Shown in pieces: positions 35,165-48,603 of a stretch of 64,000 nucleotides of DNA. Source of the DNA: Lactiplantibacillus daoliensis (lineage in GTDB: Bacteria; Bacillota; Bacilli; Lactobacillales; Lactobacillaceae). How positions within the stretch are numbered: the stretch's first letter is position 1; every line of letters starts with the position of its first letter. The position numbers and the translations under genes are program-made. Below the pieces are notes generated by a model. The model saw only the letters and a program-made list of their open reading frames with translations. It was not told the DNA's origin and did not search any database. The stretch spans positions 124,001-188,000 of the forward strand of contig NZ_BJDH01000002.1 of NCBI RefSeq assembly GCF_005405005.1. The letters are read 5' to 3'.

Positions 35165-35638
35165 CTACCCTTTTATTTCTTTAGTATCAACTAATACCTT
35201 GTTAACCATTTTAAGCTCATCACTTAATTCTGACGTTCGGATACGACCGAACTCATCGAGAAACTTTTGTAGTCGTTCTTCATTAACTTTTTCAATTAGA
35301 TGCGCAGCAGTTTCGCCCTTGCTAGTCAGCGTCAAGTAACGATACCGACGATCATATGGATCGATCTTTAATATAATGAAATCATTATTAATTAAATAAG
35401 TCAGTTTTCTTGAAATTGCTGATGAAGAAACGTGTCGATCGGCTGCAAGTTCTTTAACCGTAATCCGATGATCCGAACTATGGTCCAAGTAGTACAGGAT
35501 CAAGAACTGTTCAAACGAAATATCGAAATCGGCAACCATCGTTTGAATAATTTCGCGCAAGTGGCTTTCCAACCAAGACATCCCAACTAAAATTTTTTCA
35601 AATAACTCTTCATCGCTATATTTTTCCTTTTTATCCAT
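35165..35638 (-). CDS. MarR family transcriptional regulator
   Basis: 157-residue winged-helix regulator. The dimerisation helices flank a wHTH at about residues 55-120 (VKELAADRHVSSSAISRKLT recognition region; wing DPYDRRYRYLTLT). ATG at 35638 is chosen (MDKKEKYSDEE); a GGAG lies about 17 bases upstream, so initiation may rely on coupling to the preceding gene. It is the last gene after the coiled-coil/GtfB-like gene and would be a natural regulator of the peptide and surface-protein locus, but no operator is proven. Confidence 0.85.
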   Translation of the reverse strand: MDKKEKYSDEELFEKILVGMSWLESHLREIIQTMVADFDISFEQFLILYYLDHSSDHRITVKELAADRHVSSSAISRKLTYLINNDFIILKIDPYDRRYRYLTLTSKGETAAHLIEKVNEERLQKFLDEFGRIRTSELSDELKMVNKVLVDTKEIKG

Positions 35639-35711
35639 AGTATCAGCTTTCAATTCTCCAACCCCATTTGTGATCGTCGTGTCTAGCTGGTATCCTTCAC
35701 GACTATTGCTT

Positions 35712-37682
35712 TTAGACGCGTTCCGCAACATCGGGCATCACTGTGATTTCCAAGTCACGCGTCATTTGTTTTTCAATTGCTTTTTGCACATCAGCATCAG
35801 TTGCTACCAAGGACGTTAACTGGCTCTTGCCGGCAATGATGTCTTTAACATGGGCATTATCCAAATCATCTGCTGATACAATTGGTAAAATGTGGAAATT
35901 GTCATCAGTTGCTTTAAGACATTCGTCGAATAATGGTGTATTAACACCCATCAATAAGACGCTGTTTTGTTGCTTCATGACAGAATCTAACCACCATACT
36001 AATAATTGCTCTTCAGAATGGAAAACATTAGTAATTGATTCTTCTTCGTTAACTAATTGAATCGATAATTCATGATTATTACCGTATTGTTTGATCATAG
36101 CAATTGAATGATCTGGACGATAGAAGTTTTCTAAGGTCACTTGAGCATTGTTGGCACGATCAAGGTATTGCGTAACTGATAAGAAACCAGCAGCATCATA
36201 GACATCACGACGCGTTGCAATTGAACCATTGAAGTACGTAATGTACCAGATAGCCCCGTCTTTGCGGTACTTCAAGTCCATAATCAAATTGCCACCATCA
36301 TCCGCGATTGAAACAATTTGCTTGGCTTCATTGCGTTTGTAATCCCATGCGGGGTTGCTAGGCAATTCTAACTTAGTCTTGGCAACTTCGCCAGGAACTT
36401 TTTCTTGAATGGTGTAATACAGGTTATATAAACCGGCGTCTTTTGAAACCAAACCGTTGTCATGATAACCCTTCCAGATAGTTGGTAAGTTATCATTATA
36501 ATTAACCGTAATCACACTAGGTGCACTCTTAACTTCGTCGCCTAACAAGCCCATTACCATCTTGATTGAGGTTTGTTCCTCAGGTGACAGTGACTGGATT
36601 AAATCGTTGCTGAATAAGAAGTAACGAGACGTTTGGTCAAACTCAACAGGTGAAACCAAATGGGTCGTCCCATAATCTGATTGGAGCTTATTGTCGATGT
36701 TGGCAATTTTCTTTTCCAAAGCATCCGCATTTTGAGCATTTTGATCATAATCGTGTTGTAAACGATTGATCTTTTGTTTCAATAAGCTCAAAGCCCGGTC
36801 TTGTTCATCAGCGGCACTCTTCTTCTTACGGTCATAGGCTACTAAGGTATCTTGTGCAGTATGTAACGCCTTTTCAGCAGTCGTAATGGCATGTTCTTTG
36901 TTCGCACGTTGCCGCGTTTCAGATTGTTCACGTTTTTGCAGTTTAACGAGTTCACTGTTAATAGCGTCACTCTTTGAATAAAGCTCCTGTGCTTGCTTTT
37001 CTTGTTGCTTCATGAGGACAAATAACTTCTTCAAGTCTTGTTCGCCTTGAATAGCTTTCCGCATGTCGGCTTCAGTCTTCCGCAAGTCTGCTAAACTTTG
37101 TTCTGATTTACTAATCTTCTTAGCTAATGAGCTTAAAGTTTGATCACTCTTAGCAAGTGTCGCTTTGGCATCGTTATACGCAGTTTGTTCAGCTGTGATC
37201 TTAGTAACCATGGCTTGACGTTCGTCATCATTCGTTTCGACGACCTTGTCTTGGTTCTTAAAGGCTAACTTAGCATCTGCTAATTGTTGTCTTAGGTTAG
37301 CCTGATCTGCAACAACTGTCTCACGTTGGCGACTTTCATGCTTACGATCTTGAACTAATTGAACCTTTAATTCTCCCCGTAAAACTTGATATTGTTTGTT
37401 CAAGTCAGCCATTTCACGTTCTAGTGCTTGACTATTTTTGGCAGCTTTTTGACTAGCACGACGCTGACTAACCCGATTTTGTCCTTTTACGGGAGTCGAT
37501 GGCGAAGTCGTTGCACTAGTACTTCTTGCTGGCCGTGAGCTTGTCGGCCGCGTACTTGGGCTTGTGGTACTTTGGGTATCTTTGGGCTTCTGTGCGGCAA
37601 CAGTTGAAGTGGCCGTCGCGCGCCCAGAATCACTCGCAAATTCTTCATCTTTATCTTTGCGCTTTAAACTGAACATCTTCAT
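35712..37682 (-). CDS. Coiled-coil protein with C-terminal GtfB-like (glycosylation chaperone) domain
   Basis: 656 residues in three parts. Residues 1-90: basic Ser/Thr/Pro-rich disordered segment. Residues about 85-335: long heptad-like coiled coil rich in K, Q, E and A. Residues about 340-656: a domain like GtfB/TagE-type accessory subunits, with RRDVYDAAGFLSVTQYLDRA, NFYRPDHS and a C-terminal half with LLMGVNTPLFDECL. The same pattern (RRDYYDTRGFLSVAQYFD) is seen in the N-terminal half of the glycosyltransferase at 44391. In known pairs (GtfA-GtfB, O-GlcNAc transfer to Ser/Thr proteins) GtfB is a non-catalytic substrate-binding partner. No signal peptide: cytoplasmic. Fusion to so long a coiled coil is unusual. 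Confidence 0.7.
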   Translation of the reverse strand: MKMFSLKRKDKDEEFASDSGRATATSTVAAQKPKDTQSTTSPSTRPTSSRPARSTSATTSPSTPVKGQNRVSQRRASQKAAKNSQALEREMADLNKQYQVLRGELKVQLVQDRKHESRQRETVVADQANLRQQLADAKLAFKNQDKVVETNDDERQAMVTKITAEQTAYNDAKATLAKSDQTLSSLAKKISKSEQSLADLRKTEADMRKAIQGEQDLKKLFVLMKQQEKQAQELYSKSDAINSELVKLQKREQSETRQRANKEHAITTAEKALHTAQDTLVAYDRKKKSAADEQDRALSLLKQKINRLQHDYDQNAQNADALEKKIANIDNKLQSDYGTTHLVSPVEFDQTSRYFLFSNDLIQSLSPEEQTSIKMVMGLLGDEVKSAPSVITVNYNDNLPTIWKGYHDNGLVSKDAGLYNLYYTIQEKVPGEVAKTKLELPSNPAWDYKRNEAKQIVSIADDGGNLIMDLKYRKDGAIWYITYFNGSIATRRDVYDAAGFLSVTQYLDRANNAQVTLENFYRPDHSIAMIKQYGNNHELSIQLVNEEESITNVFHSEEQLLVWWLDSVMKQQNSVLLMGVNTPLFDECLKATDDNFHILPIVSADDLDNAHVKDIIAGKSQLTSLVATDADVQKAIEKQMTRDLEITVMPDVAERV

Positions 37683-37785: not shown

Positions 37786-40254
37786 TTAAGCTTGGTGCTT
37801 CCGACGTTTAGTCGCGCCAAAGAACAATGCTGAACCCATCACTAAGGTGCTGAGACCTAAGACAGCTAAAGCAGTCCCATTTTCTTCATCTGTTTGAGGT
37901 AAAGTCGTGGCATCTGACTTCTTAGTTGCTTGGTCAGCAGAACTTACGACTGGCTTCAAGACAGTGTTAGTAGGAACAACTCCGGCAGTACCATTGTCGG
38001 TAGCAGTCAAAGTGTCGCCACTAGCAGTGGTGTCGGTATCTGGCGTCGTTGCTGGCGCAGTAGTCGTGCCACCATTGTTATTGTCTTCACCAGGGTTGAT
38101 CGTATCTGGATCAGAAACATCTGGGTCAGTTGGTGCGGTTGTAGGAGCCGTTGTTGAGGCACCGTTCTTACCATAGGTTAAGGTCAAAACAGTATCGCCA
38201 GCAACAGTCCCACTCAAATCACCATCTGCTTCTTTGTAAGTGTAACCATTGATTGCAGGTGTATCTACAGAATAGCTATCACCAACATTGTATTGCGAAG
38301 AAGTTGATGGTTGGATTTCATCACCATTTTCATCAACATACTTAACCGTAACAGTCCCAGTCTTCACTGGATCAACTGCATTGGCTTTGTAAGTCAAGTT
38401 AATGGTTGAATCGCCAGCAACTTCACCGCTTAAGTCAGCATTAGCCGACACATAACTGTAGCCATCAATTTTTGGTGTGTCAACATTGTAAGTATCACCG
38501 ACAGCATATTCAGTTGAAGTAGCAGCCTTGATAACATTACCAGCTTCATCTAAATAGTTGACCGTAACAGTTGCTTTATCAACAGGCGTTGCATCCTTGG
38601 TGTAAGTTAAGGTAATTGTCGTATTACCGGCAACAGTCCCCTCCAAGTCACCAACTGCAGAAGTATATTCGTACCCTGCAATTTCAGGTGTTTCAACCGT
38701 ATAAGGATCGCCAACGGTATATTCAGTTGATGTAGCAGGTGAAATTTCGTTACCAGCAGCATCAACGTAGTTAACCGTAACAGTTGCTTTTTCAGCAGGA
38801 ACTGCTTCGTATACAAAGGTTACATTGTTGTTGCCTGCAGCTAAAGTTCCTTTAGCCACGTCACTAGCATCTCTGGCTGTGACATCGTCACCAATCTTAT
38901 AACCAACTAAGTTATAACCATCAATCTTAGGTGCAGTAACTTCATAGGTCCCGCCAGCACGAGTTAAGGTACCATCAGCACCGTTAACAAAATTTTGGTC
39001 AGCAGCAACTGTACTACCGTCTGCAGTTTGATACTTGGTTGTTAAGCCAGTGTTTTCCATGTACATCAAGGCAACATGGGCACCACCCTTAGCAAGGGTA
39101 CCAGTTAATGCATATTGAGCATTAGTTTGATCTTGTGGAATATAAGTATATCCTGCTAAGTCTGCTGGGGTAATCGTATAGGTCCCGCCAACTTCGCCGT
39201 TTTGAACAACTTCAGCGGCAGCGTCATCTGCAGTACCATTGATACGTTTAACATTAGGCGTACCGTCCGCATTAACACCAACGACAACAAAGTAATAAAC
39301 GTTAACATCATCAGTATCAGCTACTGGCGTTGTCGTATTGTCATCGGTCGTAACCGTAGTAGTATAGTTCCAGCCAACTTTTGTGACATCAGTTTCAGCA
39401 TTAGCATCAGGAACATCAGTGAATGTTAAACCACCGGTAGGACTTGAAGTAACCGCGTTATAAACGTAGTTCAAGATAACTGAATCATTATCACCAATTG
39501 CACTATAGTTGACAGACCCCATAGCAGCTGCTTCATTGTCTGTTAAGGTAGTTGTCTTACCACCGATTACATAAGAAGCAAGCTTCCAAGTACCAGTATC
39601 AGATGCAACATTACCCTTGATAGAAAATTGACCAGTAGTGTTAGACCAATCAACATCTGAATTCTTAGTTAAAGTTACTTGAACATTGTAGTTCTTACCT
39701 GCTTCAGCGTTGAATTGAGTTCCATCAACAGTTGCGCCGACAGCCTGTGCAGCACTATCTTTTTTAACTTCACCGGCACCTGAAGCAACTGGAGTTGCAG
39801 CAGTTGAGGTAGCTTGACTGGAAGCATTAGAAGTAACAGTGACGCTTGCAGGAGTGCTTACAGTCACTTCAGCATCAGAAGCTGGTGCTGAAACTACAGG
39901 AGCAGCTTGACTAACAGAAGCTGCGGCTGGTGTAGCTGGTGTTTCAGCAGCTGGTTGAGCAGGTGCTGCAGCATCAGTTTTTACTGGTGTTTGAGTTGCT
40001 TCGGCAGTTGCTGGGGCAGCTTGTTGATCATTTTGTGATACAGAACCGGCATCACTATTGGTTACAACTTGTTCTTGTTGTGGTTCAGCTGAACCATTAT
40101 TAGTCGTATCAGCTGAAGCGTTAACATTTGCAAAAACGAGGCCTGCTGCTAAGGCTAAAGTAGTCGCGCCAGCATAAACCCATTTTTTGCCATCTTTATA
40201 CATCTTTACCCGATAAACTGAATCACCGGTCATTTTTTGATTATCTTTTGACAT
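37786..40254 (-). CDS. KxYKxGKxW-signal, LPXTG-anchored surface protein with MucBP-like repeats
   Basis: 822 residues. N-terminal KxYKxGKxW-type signal (YRVKMYKDGKKWVYAG, about residues 14-29) with cleavage probable after ANVNASA. Then an A/T/S/P/V-rich low-complexity region to about 170, suitable for O-glycosylation, and a beta-rich domain of about 170-330. Repeats follow: two divergent ones, then three tandem MucBP-like repeats of about 65 residues, each with TVNYxDxxGN and GYxYxxxxxDLxGxVAG. A T/P/D-rich spacer and sortase motif LPQTDEENG, membrane helix and tail RRKHQA end the protein. Ribosome site GGGGAGGA. Likely mucin or glycan adhesin. The signal type is known from glycosylated serine-rich adhesins. 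Confidence 0.9.
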   Translation of the reverse strand: MSKDNQKMTGDSVYRVKMYKDGKKWVYAGATTLALAAGLVFANVNASADTTNNGSAEPQQEQVVTNSDAGSVSQNDQQAAPATAEATQTPVKTDAAAPAQPAAETPATPAAASVSQAAPVVSAPASDAEVTVSTPASVTVTSNASSQATSTAATPVASGAGEVKKDSAAQAVGATVDGTQFNAEAGKNYNVQVTLTKNSDVDWSNTTGQFSIKGNVASDTGTWKLASYVIGGKTTTLTDNEAAAMGSVNYSAIGDNDSVILNYVYNAVTSSPTGGLTFTDVPDANAETDVTKVGWNYTTTVTTDDNTTTPVADTDDVNVYYFVVVGVNADGTPNVKRINGTADDAAAEVVQNGEVGGTYTITPADLAGYTYIPQDQTNAQYALTGTLAKGGAHVALMYMENTGLTTKYQTADGSTVAADQNFVNGADGTLTRAGGTYEVTAPKIDGYNLVGYKIGDDVTARDASDVAKGTLAAGNNNVTFVYEAVPAEKATVTVNYVDAAGNEISPATSTEYTVGDPYTVETPEIAGYEYTSAVGDLEGTVAGNTTITLTYTKDATPVDKATVTVNYLDEAGNVIKAATSTEYAVGDTYNVDTPKIDGYSYVSANADLSGEVAGDSTINLTYKANAVDPVKTGTVTVKYVDENGDEIQPSTSSQYNVGDSYSVDTPAINGYTYKEADGDLSGTVAGDTVLTLTYGKNGASTTAPTTAPTDPDVSDPDTINPGEDNNNGGTTTAPATTPDTDTTASGDTLTATDNGTAGVVPTNTVLKPVVSSADQATKKSDATTLPQTDEENGTALAVLGLSTLVMGSALFFGATKRRKHQA

Positions 40255-40303
40255 TTGGATATCCTCCCCGGATACAACCTTAAAAAGCTTTTTTTACGAA
40301 AAT

Positions 40304-40333
40304 GATGGGTGACAAGTTTGTCAACCCACCATC
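40304..40333 (-). promoter_or_regulatory. Hairpin between peptide array and surface-protein gene
   Basis: Minus-strand GATGGTGGGTTGACAAACTT followed by GTCACCCATC forms TGACA/TGTCA plus GGG/CCC pairing with a bulge, then ATTTTCG. Could be a weak attenuator that lowers read-through from peptides into the surface gene. Confidence 0.35.
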
Positions 40334-40401
40334 TTCATCCCGCTTATATGCGTTGCGTCATGGTATCAGTATTGAGACCGATATCAATTTACAATGGTTG
40401 T

Positions 40402-40539
40402 TTAGAACAAACCTTTAAGTGCTGAGATTAAGTTCAAAACAAAGCTATGGAAACCACCAAAAATGTCGTTTGAGACACTTGATGTGTATGATGAAGTATG
40501 GGTACCTGGTAATACGTGAAAATCATTGAAGAAACTCAT
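40402..40539 (-). CDS. Tandem small peptide, copy 1 (45 aa, subfamily A)
   Basis: 45 residues, last of nine tandem paralogues in transcription order. N-terminus MSFFNDFHVLPGTHTSSYTS, then SVSNDIFGGFHSFVLNLISA and end LKGLF. No cysteine, no signal peptide. A Ser/Thr-rich segment (residues 13-23) precedes a hydrophobic C-terminal half that can form an amphipathic helix with one lysine. Strong ribosome site GGGAGGA. I know no family by sequence. Architecture recalls leaderless membrane-active peptides such as PSM-beta or leaderless bacteriocins. Confidence 0.85.
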   Translation of the reverse strand: MSFFNDFHVLPGTHTSSYTSSVSNDIFGGFHSFVLNLISALKGLF

Positions 40540-40590
40540 GATGTAAATCCTCCCTTTTTATTAAGTATTGTTCGCTAGTTTTAGTGGCCC

Positions 40591-40734
40591 CTATTTTGAG
40601 AACAAGCCTTTGAATGCTGAAACTAAGTTTAAGATGAAGCTGTGTAAACCACCAAAGATATCGTTTGAAACACTTGATGTATATGATGAAGTATGGGTAC
40701 CTGGTAATACGTGGAAATCATTGAAAAAGCTCAT
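40591..40734 (-). CDS. Tandem small peptide, copy 2 (47 aa, subfamily A)
   Basis: 47 residues; same first 29 residues as copy 1, then LHSFILNLVSAFKGLFSK. The two-residue SK extension gives a second C-terminal lysine, shared with copy 4. Ribosome site AAAGGGGA. Confidence 0.85.
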   Translation of the reverse strand: MSFFNDFHVLPGTHTSSYTSSVSNDIFGGLHSFILNLVSAFKGLFSK

Positions 40735-40761
40735 AATTTAAATCCCCTTTAATTGTTTGTT

Positions 40762-40899
40762 TTAGAAGAAGCCTTTGATCGCTGAGATCAGGTTCAATAC
40801 GAAGCTGTGGAAGCCACCGAAGATATCGTTTGAAACGCTTGATGTATATGATGAAGTATGGGTACCTGGTAATACGTGAAAATCATTGAAAAAGCTCAT
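40762..40899 (-). CDS. Tandem small peptide, copy 3 (45 aa, subfamily A)
   Basis: 45 residues, C-terminal half FHSFVLNLISAIKGFF. Protein identical to copy 5; DNA differs by a few silent bases. Ribosome site AAAGGGGA. Confidence 0.85.
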   Translation of the reverse strand: MSFFNDFHVLPGTHTSSYTSSVSNDIFGGFHSFVLNLISAIKGFF

Positions 40900-40939
40900 A
40901 ATTTAAATCCCCTTTAATTTTGTGTTTTTAATTTAGTGC

Positions 40940-41083
40940 TTATTTTGAAAATAAGCCTTTGAATGCTGAAACTAAGTTCAAGATGAAACTGTGGAAACCA
41001 CCAAAGATGTCATTTGAAACACTTGATGTATATGATGAAGTATGAGTACCTGGTAATACGTGGAAATCATTGAAAAAGCTCAT
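40940..41083 (-). CDS. Tandem small peptide, copy 4 (47 aa, subfamily A)
   Basis: 47 residues, C-terminal half FHSFILNLVSAFKGLFSK; pairs with copy 2 as the SK-ending type. Ribosome site AAAGGAGA. Confidence 0.85.
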   Translation of the reverse strand: MSFFNDFHVLPGTHTSSYTSSVSNDIFGGFHSFILNLVSAFKGLFSK

Positions 41084-41109
41084 AATTTAAATCTCCTTTA
41101 ATTTTAGTT

Positions 41110-41247
41110 TTAGAAAAAGCCTTTGATAGCTGAGATCAAGTTCAATACGAAGCTGTGGAAACCACCGAAGATATCGTTTGAAACACTTGATGTATATGAT
41201 GAAGTATGGGTACCTGGTAATACATGGAAATCATTGAAAAAGCTCAT
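41110..41247 (-). CDS. Tandem small peptide, copy 5 (45 aa, subfamily A)
   Basis: 45 residues, identical in protein sequence to copy 3 (FHSFVLNLISAIKGFF end). Ribosome site AAAGGGGA. Confidence 0.85.
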   Translation of the reverse strand: MSFFNDFHVLPGTHTSSYTSSVSNDIFGGFHSFVLNLISAIKGFF

Positions 41248-41273
41248 AATTTAAATCCCCTTTAATTTTAGTT

Positions 41274-41411
41274 TTAGAAGAAGCCTTTGATAGCTGAGAT
41301 CAAGTTCAATACGAAGCTGTGGAAACCACCGAAGATATCGTTTGAAACACTTGATGTATATGATGAAGTATGGGTACCTGGTAAAATGTGAAAATCATTG
41401 AAAAAGCTCAT
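41274..41411 (-). CDS. Tandem small peptide, copy 6 (45 aa, subfamily A)
   Basis: 45 residues; differs from copies 3 and 5 only by isoleucine for valine at position 9 (FHILPGTHT). Ribosome site AAAGGGGA. Confidence 0.85.
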   Translation of the reverse strand: MSFFNDFHILPGTHTSSYTSSVSNDIFGGFHSFVLNLISAIKGFF

Positions 41412-41436
41412 AATTTAAATCCCCTTTAATTTTGTT

Positions 41437-41574
41437 TTAGAAGAAGCCTTTGATAGCTGAGATAACGTTCAAAACGAATTGGTAGAACGTACCGAGTGGT
41501 TGGTTACTTACTGAACTGGTATGTGATGAAGTATGCGTACCTGGTAATAAATGCAAATCACTGAAGAAACTCAT
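41437..41574 (-). CDS. Tandem small peptide, copy 7 (45 aa, subfamily B)
   Basis: 45 residues: MSFFSDLHLLPGTHTSSHTS, then SVSNQPLGTFYQFVLNVISA and IKGFF. NQPxGTxYQF replaces the NDIFGGxHSF of subfamily A while both ends are kept, so it may be the second component of a two-peptide pair. Ribosome site AAAGGAGG. Confidence 0.85.
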   Translation of the reverse strand: MSFFSDLHLLPGTHTSSHTSSVSNQPLGTFYQFVLNVISAIKGFF

Positions 41575-41640
41575 AATTAATTGCCTCCTTTAAGAATTGA
41601 AATGTTTAACTGTTAGGTGCAATAGCACGTCAGCGGTTGA

Positions 41641-41772
41641 CTAGCCCTTAAATGCTGCAATCACATTTAAGATGAATTGGTAAAGCGTCCCAAATGGTTG
41701 GTTGCTTACTGAACTAGTATGTGATGAAGTATGCGTACCTGGTAATAAATGTAAATCACTGAAGAAACTCAT
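41641..41772 (-). CDS. Tandem small peptide, copy 8 (43 aa, subfamily B)
   Basis: 43 residues: subfamily B core NQPFGTLYQFILNVIAAFKG, stopping two residues earlier than copy 7. Ribosome site AGGAGGG. Confidence 0.85.
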   Translation of the reverse strand: MSFFSDLHLLPGTHTSSHTSSVSNQPFGTLYQFILNVIAAFKG

Positions 41773-41868
41773 GTGAATACCCTCCTAAATTAGTGACATA
41801 ATCATTGGTCATGCAAACCGAACTTAAATCATTTAAAAATTCAATTTTTAAACGATTAGGTTACTGAA

Positions 41869-41997
41869 CTATTTAAATAAACTAATCAGATTCAAAATAA
41901 AGCTGTGTAATCCGCCGAAGATATCATTGGAAACTGAGCTTGTATGTGAAGCTGTATGGGTCCCAGGTAAAACATGAAGATCAGTAAAGAAACTCAT
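41869..41997 (-). CDS. Tandem small peptide, copy 9 (42 aa, divergent subfamily A)
   Basis: 42 residues, first gene of the array: MSFFTDLHVLPGTHTASHTS, then SVSNDIFGGLHSFILNLISL and FK. Shortest and most divergent, with the tail replaced by LFK. Ribosome site AGGGGG. About 130 bases of leader separate it from the candidate promoter. Confidence 0.85.
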   Translation of the reverse strand: MSFFTDLHVLPGTHTASHTSSVSNDIFGGLHSFILNLISLFK

Positions 41998-42123
41998 TTT
42001 GTTAACCCCCTAGATTATTTTTTAGAACTGCACATCACTCAAATGAAAATAATAAATTCATATAAAAATCTTACTTTCTTCACTCGATGTGTATGTGAAA
42101 CAAGTAACCTTGTTTACGAGTAA

Positions 42124-42153
42124 ATACTAACCAATCAACGGCAGTTGAGTCAA
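42124..42153 (-). promoter_or_regulatory. Candidate promoter of the peptide array
   Basis: TTGACT (42153-42148), 18-base spacer, TAGTAT (42129-42124) on the minus strand, about 130 bases before copy 9. Boxes are fair but not perfect. Confidence 0.45.
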
Positions 42154-42556
42154 TAAAATAACTAATATTCGAATGAATTACAGGTAGTATCACATTACGA
42201 CCTCAAATGTACATACTGTGTAACAAACAAGTACTTAACTAAGATACTAAAAACGCTCTGAACCCAGGGCACGCTTGACGGAGTTACTGATTGTCTTTTG
42301 TCCTACCAAGTACCCTATGAAAACCACTTATACCGCTGATTTAACAAGTAACCGCTTAACACCTGATAACCAGATTTTTGTCCATAGGTCAATTTGTGTT
42401 GTCATAACGATTGATTATATTGCCCCCTTTTTTTGTGTTTTTTATAAATAATTTCTATTCAAACTAGAATAAATAACTAAATCCACCTGCTATCATCAGT
42501 TGTTTTTATCAATTTTAAGTCACCACACTTTTACCAGTATTTAACACAAAATCTGC
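42154..42556. other. Intergenic region upstream of the peptide array
   Basis: About 400 AT-rich bases, no gene seen on either strand. Short palindromes such as TTCTA-N7-TAGAA near 42451-42467 may be operators. This is where regulation of the peptide operon should reside. Confidence 0.5.
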
Positions 42557-42603
42557 TAAAAAGAGCCGTTCACAATCTCGGCGATTGTGAACGGCTCTTT
42601 TTA
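42557..42603 (-). terminator. Terminator of the MacB-like/GtfA-like/ABC operon
   Basis: Stem AAAGAGCCGTTCACAATC/GATTGTGAACGGCTCTTT, nearly perfect, followed by T residues on the minus strand. It separates the exporter operon from the peptide operon. Confidence 0.92.
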
Positions 42604-42640
42604 TTTCACTTTTCGATGACTTTGACTCAAATTAGCCACT

Positions 42641-44419
42641 TTAACCGTGCCGATATTGCAACTGATAAAAGTCGCGATAACTGTCATGGGTCGCCAACAA
42701 CTGATCATGATTACCATCACCAGTAATTTGACCGTGTTCCATAAATAGAATCCGTGGATAAGCCTCAATCTGATTCAAACGATGCACAATTGTAATCGTC
42801 GTCAAGTCCTTCGGCAACGTTGCTAATAGTTCCGTTACCCGTTCCTGATTACGATTATCTAGACTGGCCGTCGCTTCATCCAAGATCAACAACGATGGCT
42901 TACGCACCAAAGCACGCACAATTGCTAACCGTTGTCGCTGGCCCCCAGAGACGTTCAAGCCACGTTCACCGACATCAGTATCTAAGCCTGCTGGTAGCTC
43001 CTGAACCCAAGCTGTAAGACCGACTTGGCCTAACAAATCAACTAAATGCGTGTCACTAACTGCTGTCGTCGACCCTAATAATAAATTATCCCGAATTGTG
43101 CCAGGCATTAAGTCGACTTCTTGACTAACATAACCAATCCGATTACGTAGCGCTGGGATGGCAAAGTCCACCATAGGGTCGCCATTGATGGTCAAATTCC
43201 CACTAGTTGGTGCGTAATATGACTCTAGCAAGGACACTAAGGTCGTCTTACCACTCCCACTTTCACCAATCAACGCGATTCGTTCCCCTTGTTGAATGGT
43301 CAAATCAATATCTTTCAAAATCATTTTATCCGTTTGATAGCCGAAATTAACGTGATCAAAACTAATTTTGTCAATATTTGCTAAATCTTTGCCGTCAACC
43401 CGTTTATCTTCAACGGGACTATCCAGGATATTATCAATCCGTTCCGTTGCCCCTACCGTTTGTTGAACAGCAGTGACTAAACCTGTCACACTACTCAAAG
43501 GTGAAATCATCTGGACTGCGTACATCAAGAACGCCACCAAGCTACCAATCGTGAGTGCCTTAGTTTGAACCAGAATTCCGCCATACACAATAATGATAAA
43601 AATGGCAGCTAACAAAATAATGTTCAAAATTGGATTCAAAATGGAAACTAATTTGATTTGATTGACGCTGAAACCTTTAATGCGATTAACCTGATCCGTC
43701 CCTTGTTGTTTCAAAGACTTTTCAGCAACCATTGCCTTGACCAAACGATTTTGTGAAATCATTTGAACAGCTGCACTGTTCAAGTTGGCAGTTTCCTTTT
43801 GAATTGCTTTCGAAATCCGCGCCAGAATCTGTCCCATTGGCACAATAATCGCTGCCATAATTGGCACAATAATCAAAATAATAATAGTCAACTTGAAATT
43901 TAACATCAACATCAAGACCAGCGACCCAATGATCGAAATAATCCCGTTGATCGCATTTGAAAATTGGCTGGAAATCAATTCAAAAATCGTCGAAGTATCG
44001 TTGACGACCCGACTGGAAAGTTCACCGGTTCGATTTTGATCGAAGTACGGAATCGGTAAGTCCACGATATGTTCCCACAACTTGCTACGTAGTGTTGAAA
44101 CCGCGTCAACTCCGGTGTAGTTCAGTAAAAAGCTCGAACTAACACTTGCCAGCAATTGAAACACAATAATCAAGGACAACTGCACAAGTAAGTGACCAGA
44201 TGTTCCATGATTAAAAGCATCAATAAATTGTTTTAATAATAAGGTAATTGATAAACTACAGATCGTTGCCACAAAGGACAACAGGATGCCGACTAAGAAC
44301 AGCCCCTTTTTCGGGTGCGCATAATGCGTAATTAACCGTAATAAATCCCGCGTCCCATATTTGCGATGCGACTTGTGATCAACTAAGTTATCAGCTGATG
44401 TTACCGATTGTGTTGCCAT
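42641..44419 (-). CDS. ABC exporter, six-TM half-transporter with ATPase
   Basis: 592 residues. Six-helix membrane domain (about 35-330) and ATPase with Walker A GESGSGKTTLVSLL, signature NVSGGQRQRLAIVRAL, Walker B LLILDEATASLD and H-loop VHRLNQ, all canonical, so it can act as a homodimer. There is no N-terminal C39 peptidase domain, so it does not cleave double-glycine leaders. Its start overlaps the glycosyltransferase stop by 29 bases: coupled translation. Best guess: exporter for the leaderless peptides or an immunity pump. Confidence 0.88.
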   Translation of the reverse strand: MATQSVTSADNLVDHKSHRKYGTRDLLRLITHYAHPKKGLFLVGILLSFVATICSLSITLLLKQFIDAFNHGTSGHLLVQLSLIIVFQLLASVSSSFLLNYTGVDAVSTLRSKLWEHIVDLPIPYFDQNRTGELSSRVVNDTSTIFELISSQFSNAINGIISIIGSLVLMLMLNFKLTIIILIIVPIMAAIIVPMGQILARISKAIQKETANLNSAAVQMISQNRLVKAMVAEKSLKQQGTDQVNRIKGFSVNQIKLVSILNPILNIILLAAIFIIIVYGGILVQTKALTIGSLVAFLMYAVQMISPLSSVTGLVTAVQQTVGATERIDNILDSPVEDKRVDGKDLANIDKISFDHVNFGYQTDKMILKDIDLTIQQGERIALIGESGSGKTTLVSLLESYYAPTSGNLTINGDPMVDFAIPALRNRIGYVSQEVDLMPGTIRDNLLLGSTTAVSDTHLVDLLGQVGLTAWVQELPAGLDTDVGERGLNVSGGQRQRLAIVRALVRKPSLLILDEATASLDNRNQERVTELLATLPKDLTTITIVHRLNQIEAYPRILFMEHGQITGDGNHDQLLATHDSYRDFYQLQYRHG

Positions 44420-45968
44420 AACGATGATCCTCCCTCATTGCTTGGATATCTGGTTGCACCACTCGGTCATTCCAGTGTTGCCAAACCATGGCTTCTGAAA
44501 AACGAGCACTATTACCATAAGCAGCTTCACTCATCATTGCCAATTTTTCTGGTTGTTCAAATAAACTCAAAATAACCTGACCCAGTTCCAATAAATTATT
44601 GGCCGGCACTAACCGACCGTTCTTCCCATCCGTAATCATTTCAGATGGCCCATATTTAATATCATAGGCGACCACGGGAACGCCATGACTCAGCGATTCC
44701 AAAGTTCCCAAGTTAAAACCTTCATACGAACTCGTTAAGACCATCATTTGAGCCTTATTATAAACATCCGTTAAATCATTTCGAAACCCTTTGAAATGAA
44801 TAAATGACTGCCACTGTTGTGAATCAACGAGGGTCCGCAGCTTTTTGTCTTCCTTGAAACCAGTCCAAGAATCGCCGTAGCCGTAAATATCCAAAGTCGC
44901 CTGCGGATACTTACCATGTACATAAGCGACTGCCTTAATCAATTGATCTAATTGTTTTTCAACCGATAGCCGCGCAATCGCGATAATTTTTCCAGGTGTT
45001 CTTTCACTGAAATCAATGGGCTTGGTCCCCATTTGTTCATCACTGACACTGCCGACCGGAATCGGAATCGTCGGTACCACATTATGGATATGGTTCGTCA
45101 TATCTTCACATTCCGCCGCAGTTGACATGATAAAGCCAGCCATTTGGTCTGCGTGATCTAGGCCGATTTGGGTGTATGGCACAATCGGCGAGTTAACAAC
45201 GTCCAGTGGGTCTTGTGTGAAGTTGCTGTGTAAAAATTCGTACTTGCGTGCATCCGAAGTCATTTCAACAATCGGATTCATGCCAGCATCGCTACGATCC
45301 ACGATCATCGTGCCACGACCACCATATTCATTATTGAGGGCATCCAAGAAAAAGGCCGTCAATTGATCCCAGTCTTCAAACTCATAGTCGTGCCCATGAA
45401 AATTAAGTAGCCGCTGATGCGTCGCGATTGGCTGCTTTTTGGCATTTGGCCGAAAATACGTCTCCAACACCGGTTCGTGTTTCAAATTACAATGTTGCTC
45501 CAAGACAATATTTTGATTTTGATCAAAATATTGAGCGACTGATAAGAAACCGCGAGTATCATAATAATCGCGCCGACTGACAGCCCCTTGCGGATTAAAC
45601 ACATTGACGTAATCAATGTTTCCCTTGCCGTTTAAGATGAGTGCCTTTTGCCGAATTCCCCGTTGCACGACATCAAACTCGTTCTTATTAATGAGCTCTA
45701 ACGTTTCGCCATTCACCCTTGGATAATTGGCCGGCGTTAAGCCCTCACCTTCATAATCAGTCGTCCCTTGAAAATAATCATACATATTAACCAGAAAATC
45801 ATCATCCAACCCGACCGCACGCATATTCTTATGCAAATCACGTACATAGTTACGTGTCACGATCAATGATGGGACGCGATGCTTTGTAAATAAGCGCTGT
45901 CGTTGAATCATGGCAATTTCAATCGCAGACGGCGTCGAATCAATTTTAGTCGTAATGAAAAAGTACAT
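44391..45968 (-). CDS. GT4 glycosyltransferase of the GtfA/TagE type
   Basis: 525 residues; start ATG 45968 (MYFFITTKIDSTPSAIE) after GAGGGGAA. The N-terminal half carries the GtfA/TagE add-on domain with RRDYYDTRGFLSVAQYFD. The GT-B catalytic half has ARLSVEKQLDQLIKAV, SSYEGFNLGTLESLSHG and AYDIKYGPSEMI, i.e. the EX7E region of family 4. L. plantarum GtfA/GtfB (formerly TagE5/TagE6) O-glycosylate surface proteins, while other TagE homologues glucosylate teichoic acid, so protein or wall-polymer targets are both possible. The GtfB-like protein at 35712 is the candidate partner. Confidence 0.85.
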   Translation of the reverse strand: MYFFITTKIDSTPSAIEIAMIQRQRLFTKHRVPSLIVTRNYVRDLHKNMRAVGLDDDFLVNMYDYFQGTTDYEGEGLTPANYPRVNGETLELINKNEFDVVQRGIRQKALILNGKGNIDYVNVFNPQGAVSRRDYYDTRGFLSVAQYFDQNQNIVLEQHCNLKHEPVLETYFRPNAKKQPIATHQRLLNFHGHDYEFEDWDQLTAFFLDALNNEYGGRGTMIVDRSDAGMNPIVEMTSDARKYEFLHSNFTQDPLDVVNSPIVPYTQIGLDHADQMAGFIMSTAAECEDMTNHIHNVVPTIPIPVGSVSDEQMGTKPIDFSERTPGKIIAIARLSVEKQLDQLIKAVAYVHGKYPQATLDIYGYGDSWTGFKEDKKLRTLVDSQQWQSFIHFKGFRNDLTDVYNKAQMMVLTSSYEGFNLGTLESLSHGVPVVAYDIKYGPSEMITDGKNGRLVPANNLLELGQVILSLFEQPEKLAMMSEAAYGNSARFSEAMVWQHWNDRVVQPDIQAMREDHRYGNTIGNIS

Positions 45969-45988
45969 ACTGCTTCCCCTCACTTCAA

Positions 45989-47986
45989 TTATTCATGTGA
46001 CAGACTTTCAACTGGATCAAGTCGTGCAGCCATGTGAGCCGGTGCTAAGGCCGCCAACAAACTGATAACAACACTGACAGTGACCCCTCCGAGCATCGCT
46101 GCGCCAGAAATCCGCACAATTGGATATTTAATTAAACTATAAACGGCCGCATTCCCCAAGGCTTGCCATAACTGACCAAAGATCAAGCCGACAATCGCTG
46201 CCAGTACCCCAATGGTCAACGCTTCTGCGAAGAATAAGTGACTGATATCACGTTTACGCGCACCCAAGGCCCGTAAGACCCCAATTTCACGGGTTCGTTC
46301 TGAAACACTGACATATAAGACGACAATAATCATGATGGCCGAAACCAATAGTGCAATCCCAGCTACCCCTGTTAAGACGTTAGTTGCCAATCGAATATAA
46401 GTGTTCAATGAATCAACCAAATCACCAATTCCTGTATAATTAAACTTTTGCTTCTTGTCACTAGTCTTAAATTGCTTGATTTGATGTTCAACTGCCTTAA
46501 CGTGCGATAATTTGCTGATTTGGACAATCGTAAAGTTTGGCCGGTAGGTGACATTTTGTTTCTGATACATGGCTTTTAAAGTCTTCGCTGGCACAACCAT
46601 TGAAAGGTCATTACTACCTGTAATCCCACTAACCTTCAGATTACGATTAATTGTCACTGCCGTATTTTTATTATCAACAGCCGACAATTTGACCGTGATC
46701 GACTTATTCAAAGCCTGCTTGTAATGCTTAGTGCCAACCAACTTTTTAGCCAATTTGCGACCAATCAAGACTTCATTACCTTTTGGCCGCTTACCTTGTT
46801 TGATAGTCTTATCCAAAACAGTGGTATTGTCTGTTTGCAAGGAAGACGTAACCGTTTTCTTTTGATAACCAGTTGTCGCAGCTGCTGAATAATAACCGAG
46901 CTTAGCAGAATCAACATAATTGAGCTTGGCTAATTGCTTAGCCTCACTTGCTGTCACTTGAGCATTCTTTTCAGCAGTCGTCTGAGTCTTATTGACTGCG
47001 GCCTTATACTCAGCGGCCGTCTTCGCATCTTTTTGATCAGCCGGATCAACAGCCTTGGTCTTCTTCGACACCTGTACCGCGGTTGGGTTCACCTGTGACG
47101 TAATTTGATGATTCATGTAGTTTTGAATCCCACTACCGAGACCAAGCATGACCACAATACTACTGATCCCAATCGATGATCCAAAGATAATGAGCAGGTA
47201 ACGCAACCACATCCGACGCATGTGTTGCATCGACATTTTAAACATCTGGCGAAAACCTAGCGTCCGATATTTAGTCGGTTTCTTAGCCACTTCGTCAAAT
47301 GGCGCCCCGATCACTAATTCGTCATGAATTTGACCATCATCTAAGTGAACGATCCGTGTTCCATAGTCTGCCACTTCTTGCGAGTGGGTTACGGTAATCA
47401 CCAATTTACCCTCGGCAGCGATTGAATAGAGAATATCCATAACTTCTAACGTATTCTGACTATCCAATGCCCCAGTTGGTTCATCAGCAATGATAATATC
47501 TGGATCACTCGCTAAGGCCCGCGCAATAGCGACCCGTTGCTTTTGTCCACCAGATAATTCATTTGGATATTGATGAGCTTGTGGTTCCAGTCCGACCCGT
47601 TTCAGTAACGAGGCGGCTTTTTTCACTTGTTCAGCATGTGACTGTTTTGTCATCTTTAATGAAAGCAAGACATTATCTAGGACACTTAAATAACTAACCA
47701 GATTAAAGTTTTGAAAGATAAAACCAATTGTTTCACGCCGATATTCTGTCAGACGTCGTTCGTTCATGGAACGGAGCGATTCGCCCTCAATTAACACGTC
47801 CCCTTCATATTGATGATCCAACCCACCGATGATATTCATCAAGGTCGATTTACCCCCACCAGATTCACCTAAGATAGAGATAAATTCCCCGCGATCAAAA
47901 TTCAAATTAATGCCCTTTAATATCACATTTTCGTGGTGATTTAAAGTGTAGGCTTTATGAATATTATGTAGTTCTAAAAAGCTCAT
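45989..47986 (-). CDS. MacB-like ABC transporter (ATPase fused to FtsX permease)
   Basis: 665 residues. N-terminal ATPase (about 1-230): Walker [15 protein letters not shown], signature [15 protein letters not shown], Walker [13 protein letters not shown]. Then one membrane helix (about 265-290), a large Lys/Thr/Ala-rich extracellular domain (about 300-530) and three C-terminal helices with the FtsX motif [20 protein letters not shown]. MacB-type machines extract substrates from the membrane outer leaflet; in Firmicutes they often give peptide resistance. ATG at 47986 after GGGAGGA; 20 bases before gtfA-like, first gene of the operon. Confidence 0.9.
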
Positions 47987-48167
47987 ACTAGTTCCTCCCA
48001 TGATTTATTTCGGAGTACGTCCCCACTGATCATTTCCTCATTTATACCATGCGATTAATAGTGAATGATGTAAAGCATTATCGAATACCAGGGGTAACGA
48101 TTTATTCGTGGGACGTTCCAACGTCAAATCCCTTTAATGACAAGGTTTTTACGCCAATCATCCAACC

Positions 48168-48226
48168 AAAAATGCCACCATTTAGACATCAAACTAAGTT
48201 GATATATCTAAACGGTGACATTTTTT
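48168..48226 (-). terminator. Terminator after the small membrane protein gene
   Basis: Long stem AAAATGTCACCGTTTAGA/TCTAAATGGTGGCATTTT with few mispairs and a T-rich tail on the minus strand. Confidence 0.85.
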
Positions 48227-48258
48227 AGATGTGTTTTTAACTCGTAAAAGTAATCACA

Positions 48259-48450
48259 TTATTTCAAAAAACTTTTCTTCGCAACAATCCGGTAGATGGC
48301 ATCACTCAGCCCAGTCACAAACACCAAGATCAGCCCAGCATACTGTAACCAAGGTGCTGCTTGCTGAATGCTAGCAACTTTACTCCCTAGACCAAACATG
48401 ATTAGTCCAACAACAATGACGATACTCTCAATAATATTTAAAGTTTTCAT
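48259..48450 (-). CDS. Small membrane protein, 63 residues
   Basis: Start at the second ATG (48450, MKTLNIIESIVIVVG): AAGGAG lies 8 bases upstream of it but only 2 from the first ATG. Two membrane segments (about residues 7-24 and 35-53) and a basic C-terminus RIVAKKSFLK. No family known to me. Own terminator. Confidence 0.7.
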   Translation of the reverse strand: MKTLNIIESIVIVVGLIMFGLGSKVASIQQAAPWLQYAGLILVFVTGLSDAIYRIVAKKSFLK

Positions 48451-48603
48451 GTCCATACTCCTTGATTGACGTGTCCTGATTGTTAAATCATCGCACGGTC
48501 ACCGAACTTTTGCAACTGGGTTAAAACTTAAGCTTGCTGTTCCACCACGGTAATAATCAGACTATGGAAAATAGTCAAATACTGCCGCTTCTGGATGTTA
48601 CCG

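Follow-up and report, generated by a model that had tools for sequence, protein, structure and literature searches.

Tandem genes for an unnamed family of small peptides in two subtypes adjoin a BmrA/LmrA-type ABC exporter in Lactiplantibacillus

The analysed stretch of DNA, referred to here as the window, comprises 64,000 nucleotides of the Lactiplantibacillus daoliensis genome (contig NZ_BJDH01000002.1, positions 124,001 to 188,000). On its minus strand, region 40402-41997 contains nine intact open reading frames of 42-47 codons, which are separated by spacers of 25-96 nt and are each preceded by a purine-rich ribosome site. Gene 1 (41869-41997, 42 aa) is a diverged first copy that resembles the first copies in two other carrier genomes (G010 and G009). 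It is followed by genes 2 (41641-41772, 43 aa) and 3 (41437-41574, 45 aa), which the tree described below assigns to subtype B, and by genes 4 (41274-41411, 45 aa), 5 (41110-41247, 45 aa), 6 (40940-41083, 47 aa), 7 (40762-40899, 45 aa), 8 (40591-40734, 47 aa) and 9 (40402-40539, 45 aa), which like gene 1 belong to subtype A. All nine peptides start with MSFF and carry the motif MSFFxDxHxLPGTHTxSxTSSVSN; 23 alignment columns are invariant. When one peptide was used as query against its own genome (2.63 Mb), all nine were recovered with E values from 1.6e-25 to 2.7e-15. The initial annotation of this DNA, which had described nine minus-strand genes with their own ribosome sites and a common motif, was borne out by these reading frames. 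Its statement that the genes fall below gene-calling cut-offs is doubtful, because common gene callers accept reading frames down to about 30 codons and the PHROGs collection already includes the family.

The gene order in Lactiplantibacillus is a MacB-type ABC protein (45989-48001 in the window), a GtfA/SdgA-like glycosyltransferase (44391-45983), a BmrA/LmrA-type ABC exporter of 592 aa (42641-44419), the peptide array, a cell-wall adhesin with a KxYKxGKxW signal, five MucBP stretches and LPXTG (37786-40254), a coiled-coil-like protein of 656 aa with an SdgA-similar stretch (35712-37682), and a MarR-family regulator (35165-35731). In the window all of these are encoded on the minus strand, and both the 656-aa protein and the regulator are conserved neighbours. 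About 38 nt past the stop codon of the exporter gene lies a perfect 20-pair palindrome with A and T runs (42557-42603). It was listed for the plus strand in the terminator scan, its minus-strand reading also ends in T5, and it is a probable terminator between the exporter gene and the array, possibly a bidirectional one. A probable array promoter, TTGACT-18-TAGTAT, was located at 42124-42153 on the minus strand; TTGAC is kept in seven of seven aligned genomes and the second box varies, and the promoter scan as such was not above chance (8 sites found versus 10.1 expected). The inverted repeat AAACAAG-GTTA-CTTGTTT (42098-42115, minus strand) lies close to where the array mRNA would be expected to start; it is perfect in four of seven genomes, G003 and G005 each have a single G-T pair in it, and in G009 it is disrupted. 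No other perfect copy occurs in the genome. Chance alone should give one match per window once two mismatches are permitted, and at up to two mismatches across the genome a backwards control gave three matches versus two for the real repeat. The 5' region of the window array folds well (z -4.63), and we interpret the repeat as a hairpin at the 5' end of the mRNA; it might instead be an operator. In the upstream alignment of seven carriers, mean column identity was 68%, and about 120 nt stand out. Past the last copy and before the adhesin gene, a strong hairpin (40296-40338, minus strand) lies in a 161-nt region with a z score of -4.27; it is absent from the listing of the terminator scan and is a probable terminator or attenuator. 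The Rfam search of 39000-48600 gave no match at the gathering threshold. The nine genes would be expressed from one mRNA with its own promoter and a possible 5' hairpin, yielding seven peptides of subtype A and two of subtype B.

Selection was analysed on copies extracted with a motif script, which returned 84 from 12 carrier genomes, 82 of them complete and free of N. The profile search gave 89 matches in the 12 carriers; the script missed five of these, namely three truncated at contig ends (G004, G011 and G018), one with N runs (G016) and a divergent orphan in G018. All 82 complete copies have a GG-rich stretch upstream. Between genomes (3037 pairs of the 82 copies) the pN/pS ratio was 0.230, with a pS of 0.64 and a pN of 0.15. 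Similar ratios were obtained within genomes (0.236) and among the nine window genes (0.244). In the control frames of the same DNA the ratio was 1.17 (+1) and 3.93 (+2), and the reverse frames gave 1.28, 0.42 and 3.21, where 0.42 is a value expected if third positions oppose each other. Because selection is frame-specific, a chance occurrence or a non-coding repeat was ruled out, and the nine reading frames are confirmed as real coding genes.

The N-terminal half of the peptides is polar and rich in Ser, Thr and His, with a constant FxxH[VILF]LPGTHT...SN pattern and on average 7.7 Ser/Thr among residues 13-24. The C-terminal half is hydrophobic and contains an invariant Lys42. Among the 59 distinct peptides, net charge is 0 in 32, -1 in 21, -2 in 3 and +1 in 3. 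The C-terminal moment averages 0.36, a value reached by 4% of composition-matched shuffles (average over the 59 peptides). Structure prediction of a single peptide, which had been proposed with the annotation, was performed with AlphaFold on peptide 5. A helix was predicted for residues 17-44, with pLDDT values of 89 for residues 31-40 and 78 for residues 41-45; overall confidence was low (pLDDT 66.9, pTM 0.33), the helix being confident only in its C-terminal part. Foldseek comparison of this model with the PDB gave no match. Glycocins have a cysteine-containing glycosylated core, whereas column counts of the 82 copies gave no Cys. Inspection by eye revealed no signal peptide. The earlier description of peptides lacking cysteines and a recognisable leader is upheld.

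Two subtypes were distinguished. Subtype A combines D25 with H31 in 62 of 62 copies, and subtype B combines a residue other than D25 with Y31 in 20 of 20. In the DNA tree a single branch parts A from B (support 93/93, below the tool's mark of 95; present in 92% of 200 bootstrap trees), and none of 500 shuffles was as low for this split. The alignment of 81 rows has just 126 columns, so that many other forks did not resolve; two B copies, from G016 and G004, were placed close to A. Both subtypes occur together in 11 of the 12 carriers; in the remaining one, G011, two copies are complete and the contig is cut. Two B copies were counted in nine genomes, one in G016 (where the second contains N) and in G004 (contig-cut), and none in G011, together with one to eight A copies per genome. 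The arrays reach up to ten similar copies. The earlier suggestion for the copy number was dosage or combinatorial function; the coexistence of the subtypes in these 11 carriers favours the latter.

Subtype A carries GlyGly at positions 28-29, as does one of the 20 B copies, and therefore the peptides were evaluated as double-glycine precursors, in which residues 1-29 would form a leader cut after Gly28-Gly29 and the remainder would be the mature peptide. Such an arrangement would agree with the stronger conservation of the N-terminal half (pN/pS 0.184 versus 0.279 for the C-terminal half). The outcome was nevertheless unfavourable: position 29 is Thr, Ala or Ser in 19 of 20 B copies, both glycines are absent from the relatives in two other genera described below, and the adjacent exporter has no match to a C39 peptidase domain. 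A C39 peptidase was absent from five of the six carriers searched, namely the host (G000) and the four carriers outside the genus (G026, G088, G081 and G113); the sixth, G005, encodes one far from its array. Because of the lack of C39 peptidase in the host and these four genomes, we regard a double-glycine leader as very improbable.

A profile search across Lactobacillaceae, another of the proposed checks, was performed. The family was found in 12 of 21 Lactiplantibacillus genomes. With a wider profile, 22 of 397 Lactobacillaceae genomes matched at E <= 0.01: the 12 Lactiplantibacillus carriers, two genomes each of two other Lactobacillaceae genera (g7 and g56), and six weak matches (L065-L070) that were rejected as chance, lying antisense to or inside longer genes. 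A profile that included the G018 orphan returned the same 16 carriers and six weak matches (L065-L067 and L152-L154), of which the last three lie in open frames of 333, 539 and 76, the shortest with an internal TGA. Five of the many matches at E <= 1 were inspected and rejected; all overlap longer reading frames, four of them antisense. Among 395 Lactobacillales genomes, two Lactiplantibacillus genomes matched along with two chance matches (L099 and L100), both antisense. Both genome sets are samples of larger groups. The plasmid search yielded two chance matches only (E 3 and 4), and the search of phage records gave no match to the peptides. Among the named loci compared, the closest is L. 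pingfangensis 382-1, with 95% for the best peptide and 93-99% for six flanking proteins. The array locus may correspond to the lp_2486 region of WCFS1.

The g7 and g56 peptides (MFSLDFWHILPGSSNTTHTSNSNNSPLANVFAFILRLFGK and near copies) stand two or three in a row. They are 25-28% identical to the window type and keep M1, H8, L10, P11, G12, N24, F33 and L35. In g56, copies 1 and 2 each have a promoter-like site (11 of 12 positions matching) in front and a terminator-like hairpin behind (scan totals, five promoters versus 3.6 by chance and five terminators versus 0.9). Both g7 copies likewise have promoter-like sites in front, and no terminator-like site was listed on that strand. The flanking genes in these genera differ from those in Lactiplantibacillus and presumably encode a phosphoketolase, a HAD hydrolase, a ribose-phosphate pyrophosphokinase and others.

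Peptide copies are also present in ten IMG/VR loci (L039-L048). A prophage origin was considered and rejected: all six of the ten loci that were compared carry the chromosomal adhesin, 656-aa protein and MarR flank, and these copies are therefore read as host flank. Several of the IMG/VR contigs start or stop inside the peptide array. Since assemblies break at the array repeats, copy numbers from draft genomes are lower bounds.

The exporter encoded in the window has BmrA as its best PDB sequence match (E 4.4e-137). A same-strand BmrA-type gene adjoins the array in all ten Lactiplantibacillus contigs that reach that side (the window, G003, G019, G005, G009, G018, G010, G016, G004 and G015). 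In g7 and g56, a same-strand ABC exporter gene lies 3' of the peptides within about 170-250 nt; no other gene intervenes in G026 (g7) and G081 (g56), which were read directly, and it stands at a matching distance in G088 (g7) and G113 (g56). The position thus differs, in Lactiplantibacillus 5' of the array behind the probable terminator and in g7/g56 on the 3' side. The peptidase-less BmrA/LmrA-type exporter is the sole array neighbour common to all three genera and is therefore the main clue to function.

To compare the exporters, the G081 protein was searched against the 397 Lactobacillaceae genomes, with three candidates scored per genome. Matches at E <= 1e-90 were found in 11 genomes. In eight of them the match is the peptide-adjacent gene (four g7/g56 and four Lactiplantibacillus genomes; the other eight of the 12 Lactiplantibacillus carriers did not pass), and the remaining three are g13 genomes, where no peptide array adjoins. 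With the window exporter as query, the peptide-adjacent gene was the best match in G081 and G113 and the second in G026 and G088. Identity of the window exporter to BmrA-type genes of three other genera is 38-41%, and each of the 21 genomes in this search had at least two ABC matches. Judged by these matches, the exporter class is shared across the three genera, and orthology is not clean. Since BmrA-type exporters are common, chance adjacency of exporter and array is possible. The adjacent protein belongs to the same class as the BmrA/LmrA-type multidrug exporters, of which 12 other loci in 11 genomes, including another G088 exporter, were read; the ORF filter applied revealed no tandem array of peptides at any of them.

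The adjacency and the hydrophobic C-terminal helix would also suit a role as small membrane proteins retained by the cell, where they would regulate or assist the ABC protein encoded next to them. We consider this quite improbable: up to ten similar copies in two subtypes would, on general knowledge, be unusual for a regulator, and the array probably has its own promoter and is set apart by a terminator, which does not point to fixed co-expression. In g13, a reading frame of 31 aa with a good ribosome site (MSFSNVLHFILNILGFTFGWNNGSKINGKDV; L094:1226-1321 and L126:3116-3211) adjoins a related ABC exporter. It could encode an unrelated exported peptide and is not similar enough to be claimed as a family member.

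On the far side of the array, an adhesin match was found in 11 of 11 cases; these adhesins have diverged (33-91%), and for G005 and G018 the best-matching piece spans just the N-terminal region. Close orthologues of the transferase (at least 61%) and of the 656-aa protein (at least 43%) occur in exactly the 12 carriers, other matches reaching at most 36% and 24%, respectively. The Lactiplantibacillus block may be kept or lost as one unit. This flank, together with the high Ser/Thr content of residues 13-24, would be consistent with surface or biofilm peptides that work with the adjoining adhesin through coating, aggregation or glycosylation of the Ser/Thr half by the neighbouring transferase. 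However, the co-occurrence concerns one contiguous block, a hairpin separates the array from the adhesin gene, and g7 and g56 have the peptides with no adhesin or glycosyltransferase beside them in the about 20 kb read. A role of this kind is in our view unlikely. The adhesin was also compared with msa (lp_1229). According to PMC8493755, marR follows msa after 11 bp; because a 656-aa gene stands between adhesin and marR in the window, this identity was rejected. The 656-aa protein, whose SdgA-like stretch is C-terminal, may be a helper in adhesin glycosylation or export that has gone unrecognised. Distant paralogues were observed in G020 (L086), next to a KxYKxGKxW-type protein of 2573 aa, and elsewhere in G000 (L087); no small-peptide array was found at either locus by the ORF filter.

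The initial annotation did not recognise the family. Pfam gave no family at E <= 1 for five window peptides and 11 family members, NCBIfam no match for the nine window peptides, and PADLOC no match to the peptides; a profile search of PDB sequences returned one chance-level match only (E 0.1). All nine window peptides matched phrog_32203 of PHROGs v4 (best E 2.8e-29), and two g7/g56 peptides matched it weakly (E 3.6e-5 and 2.7e-4). This entry is the peptide family itself, with neither name nor function attached; it probably entered a phage library through host flanks carried on prophage contigs. In the open-licence PMC literature no study of the family was found and 'LPGTHT' occurred in none, which is not proof that it is unpublished.

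The annotation had likened the tandem, leaderless layout to PSM-beta peptides and leaderless bacteriocins, and this resemblance stands, as does its remark that neither matches. The PSM-beta peptides of staphylococci are about 44 aa long, leaderless, encoded in tandem and near-neutral, form an amphipathic helix and are ABC-exported via Pmt under the control of agr. The peptides of the array share the length of about 44 aa, the tandem order, the near-neutral charge, the amphipathic helix (confident C-terminally) and the lack of a visible leader, and would likewise be exported. Unlike PSM-beta they have no Pfam match and a different N-terminal motif, differences that rest on the profile search and the known features of PSM-beta, and a single half-transporter gene adjoins the array in contrast to the Pmt system. 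Aureocin A70 and garvicin KS resemble the array in that a number of small peptides, leaderless in those systems and with no recognisable leader here, are encoded one after another next to transport genes. In the published descriptions of these two given in PMC6131525 they are peptides of 30-34 aa with charges of +4 to +5, and the passages there on leaderless bacteriocins give a range of +4 to +8, compared with 42-47 aa and -2 to +1 for the 59 distinct peptides of this family. Because no profile matched and charge is about 0 instead of +4 to +8, the peptides are assigned to neither PSM-beta nor the leaderless bacteriocins.

A multi-peptide leaderless bacteriocin, in which A and B would act jointly to kill close competitors, with export and immunity provided by the ABC protein, is nonetheless a tentative reading. 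It draws on the several tandem small peptides without recognisable leader beside an ABC exporter, on the joint maintenance of two subtypes and on the patchy presence in the genus; the charge, the empty Pfam and NCBIfam searches (E <= 1) and the finding of no PH-domain or known immunity family among the scanned flanking proteins of at least 130 aa make it rather doubtful.

The reading that we prefer, and to which we give an even chance, is that the peptides are near-neutral, amphipathic and leaderless, are exported by the adjoining ABC protein and act as a mixed surface-active set, in a manner comparable to PSM-beta or multi-peptide leaderless bacteriocins. The peptidase-less exporter would carry the peptides out uncut. 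The mixture of A and B would then act on membranes or the cell surface, in a surface-active or membrane-permeabilising manner, and the ABC pump might also protect the maker of the peptides. Export and membrane activity are probable, and their mechanism is inferred; the net charge of about 0, unlike that of cationic pore-formers, counts against this reading. A related proposal that we consider somewhat unlikely is a two-component ABC-exported class, neither a known bacteriocin class nor PSM, in which the constant N-terminal half (FxxHxLPGTHT..SN) would be an uncleaved recognition signal for the peptidase-less exporter, the variable helix the effector and a set A/B mix the active assembly. The interpretation offered by the initial annotation was upheld in part, for a real, unnamed tandem family; it had overlooked the exporter, the split into A and B, the relatives in other genera, and the conservation of both the control region and the adhesin/glycosyltransferase flank.

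Lactiplantibacillus, which includes L. plantarum, is widely used in food and as a probiotic, and the array might account in part for the way in which these bacteria compete or coat themselves. If tied to one simple ABC pump, it would show a multidrug-type protein turned peptide exporter without a leader-cutting domain. The orphan member in G018 (MGIYIFWKAGLPTTSSASHTSSVSNDPFGGLHSFILNLITSAKN; L136:1021-1155) stands apart from any array. It has an open frame of 44 codons, its own ribosome site and, by eye, a terminator-like hairpin; its N-terminus is changed and its C-terminal half is kept.
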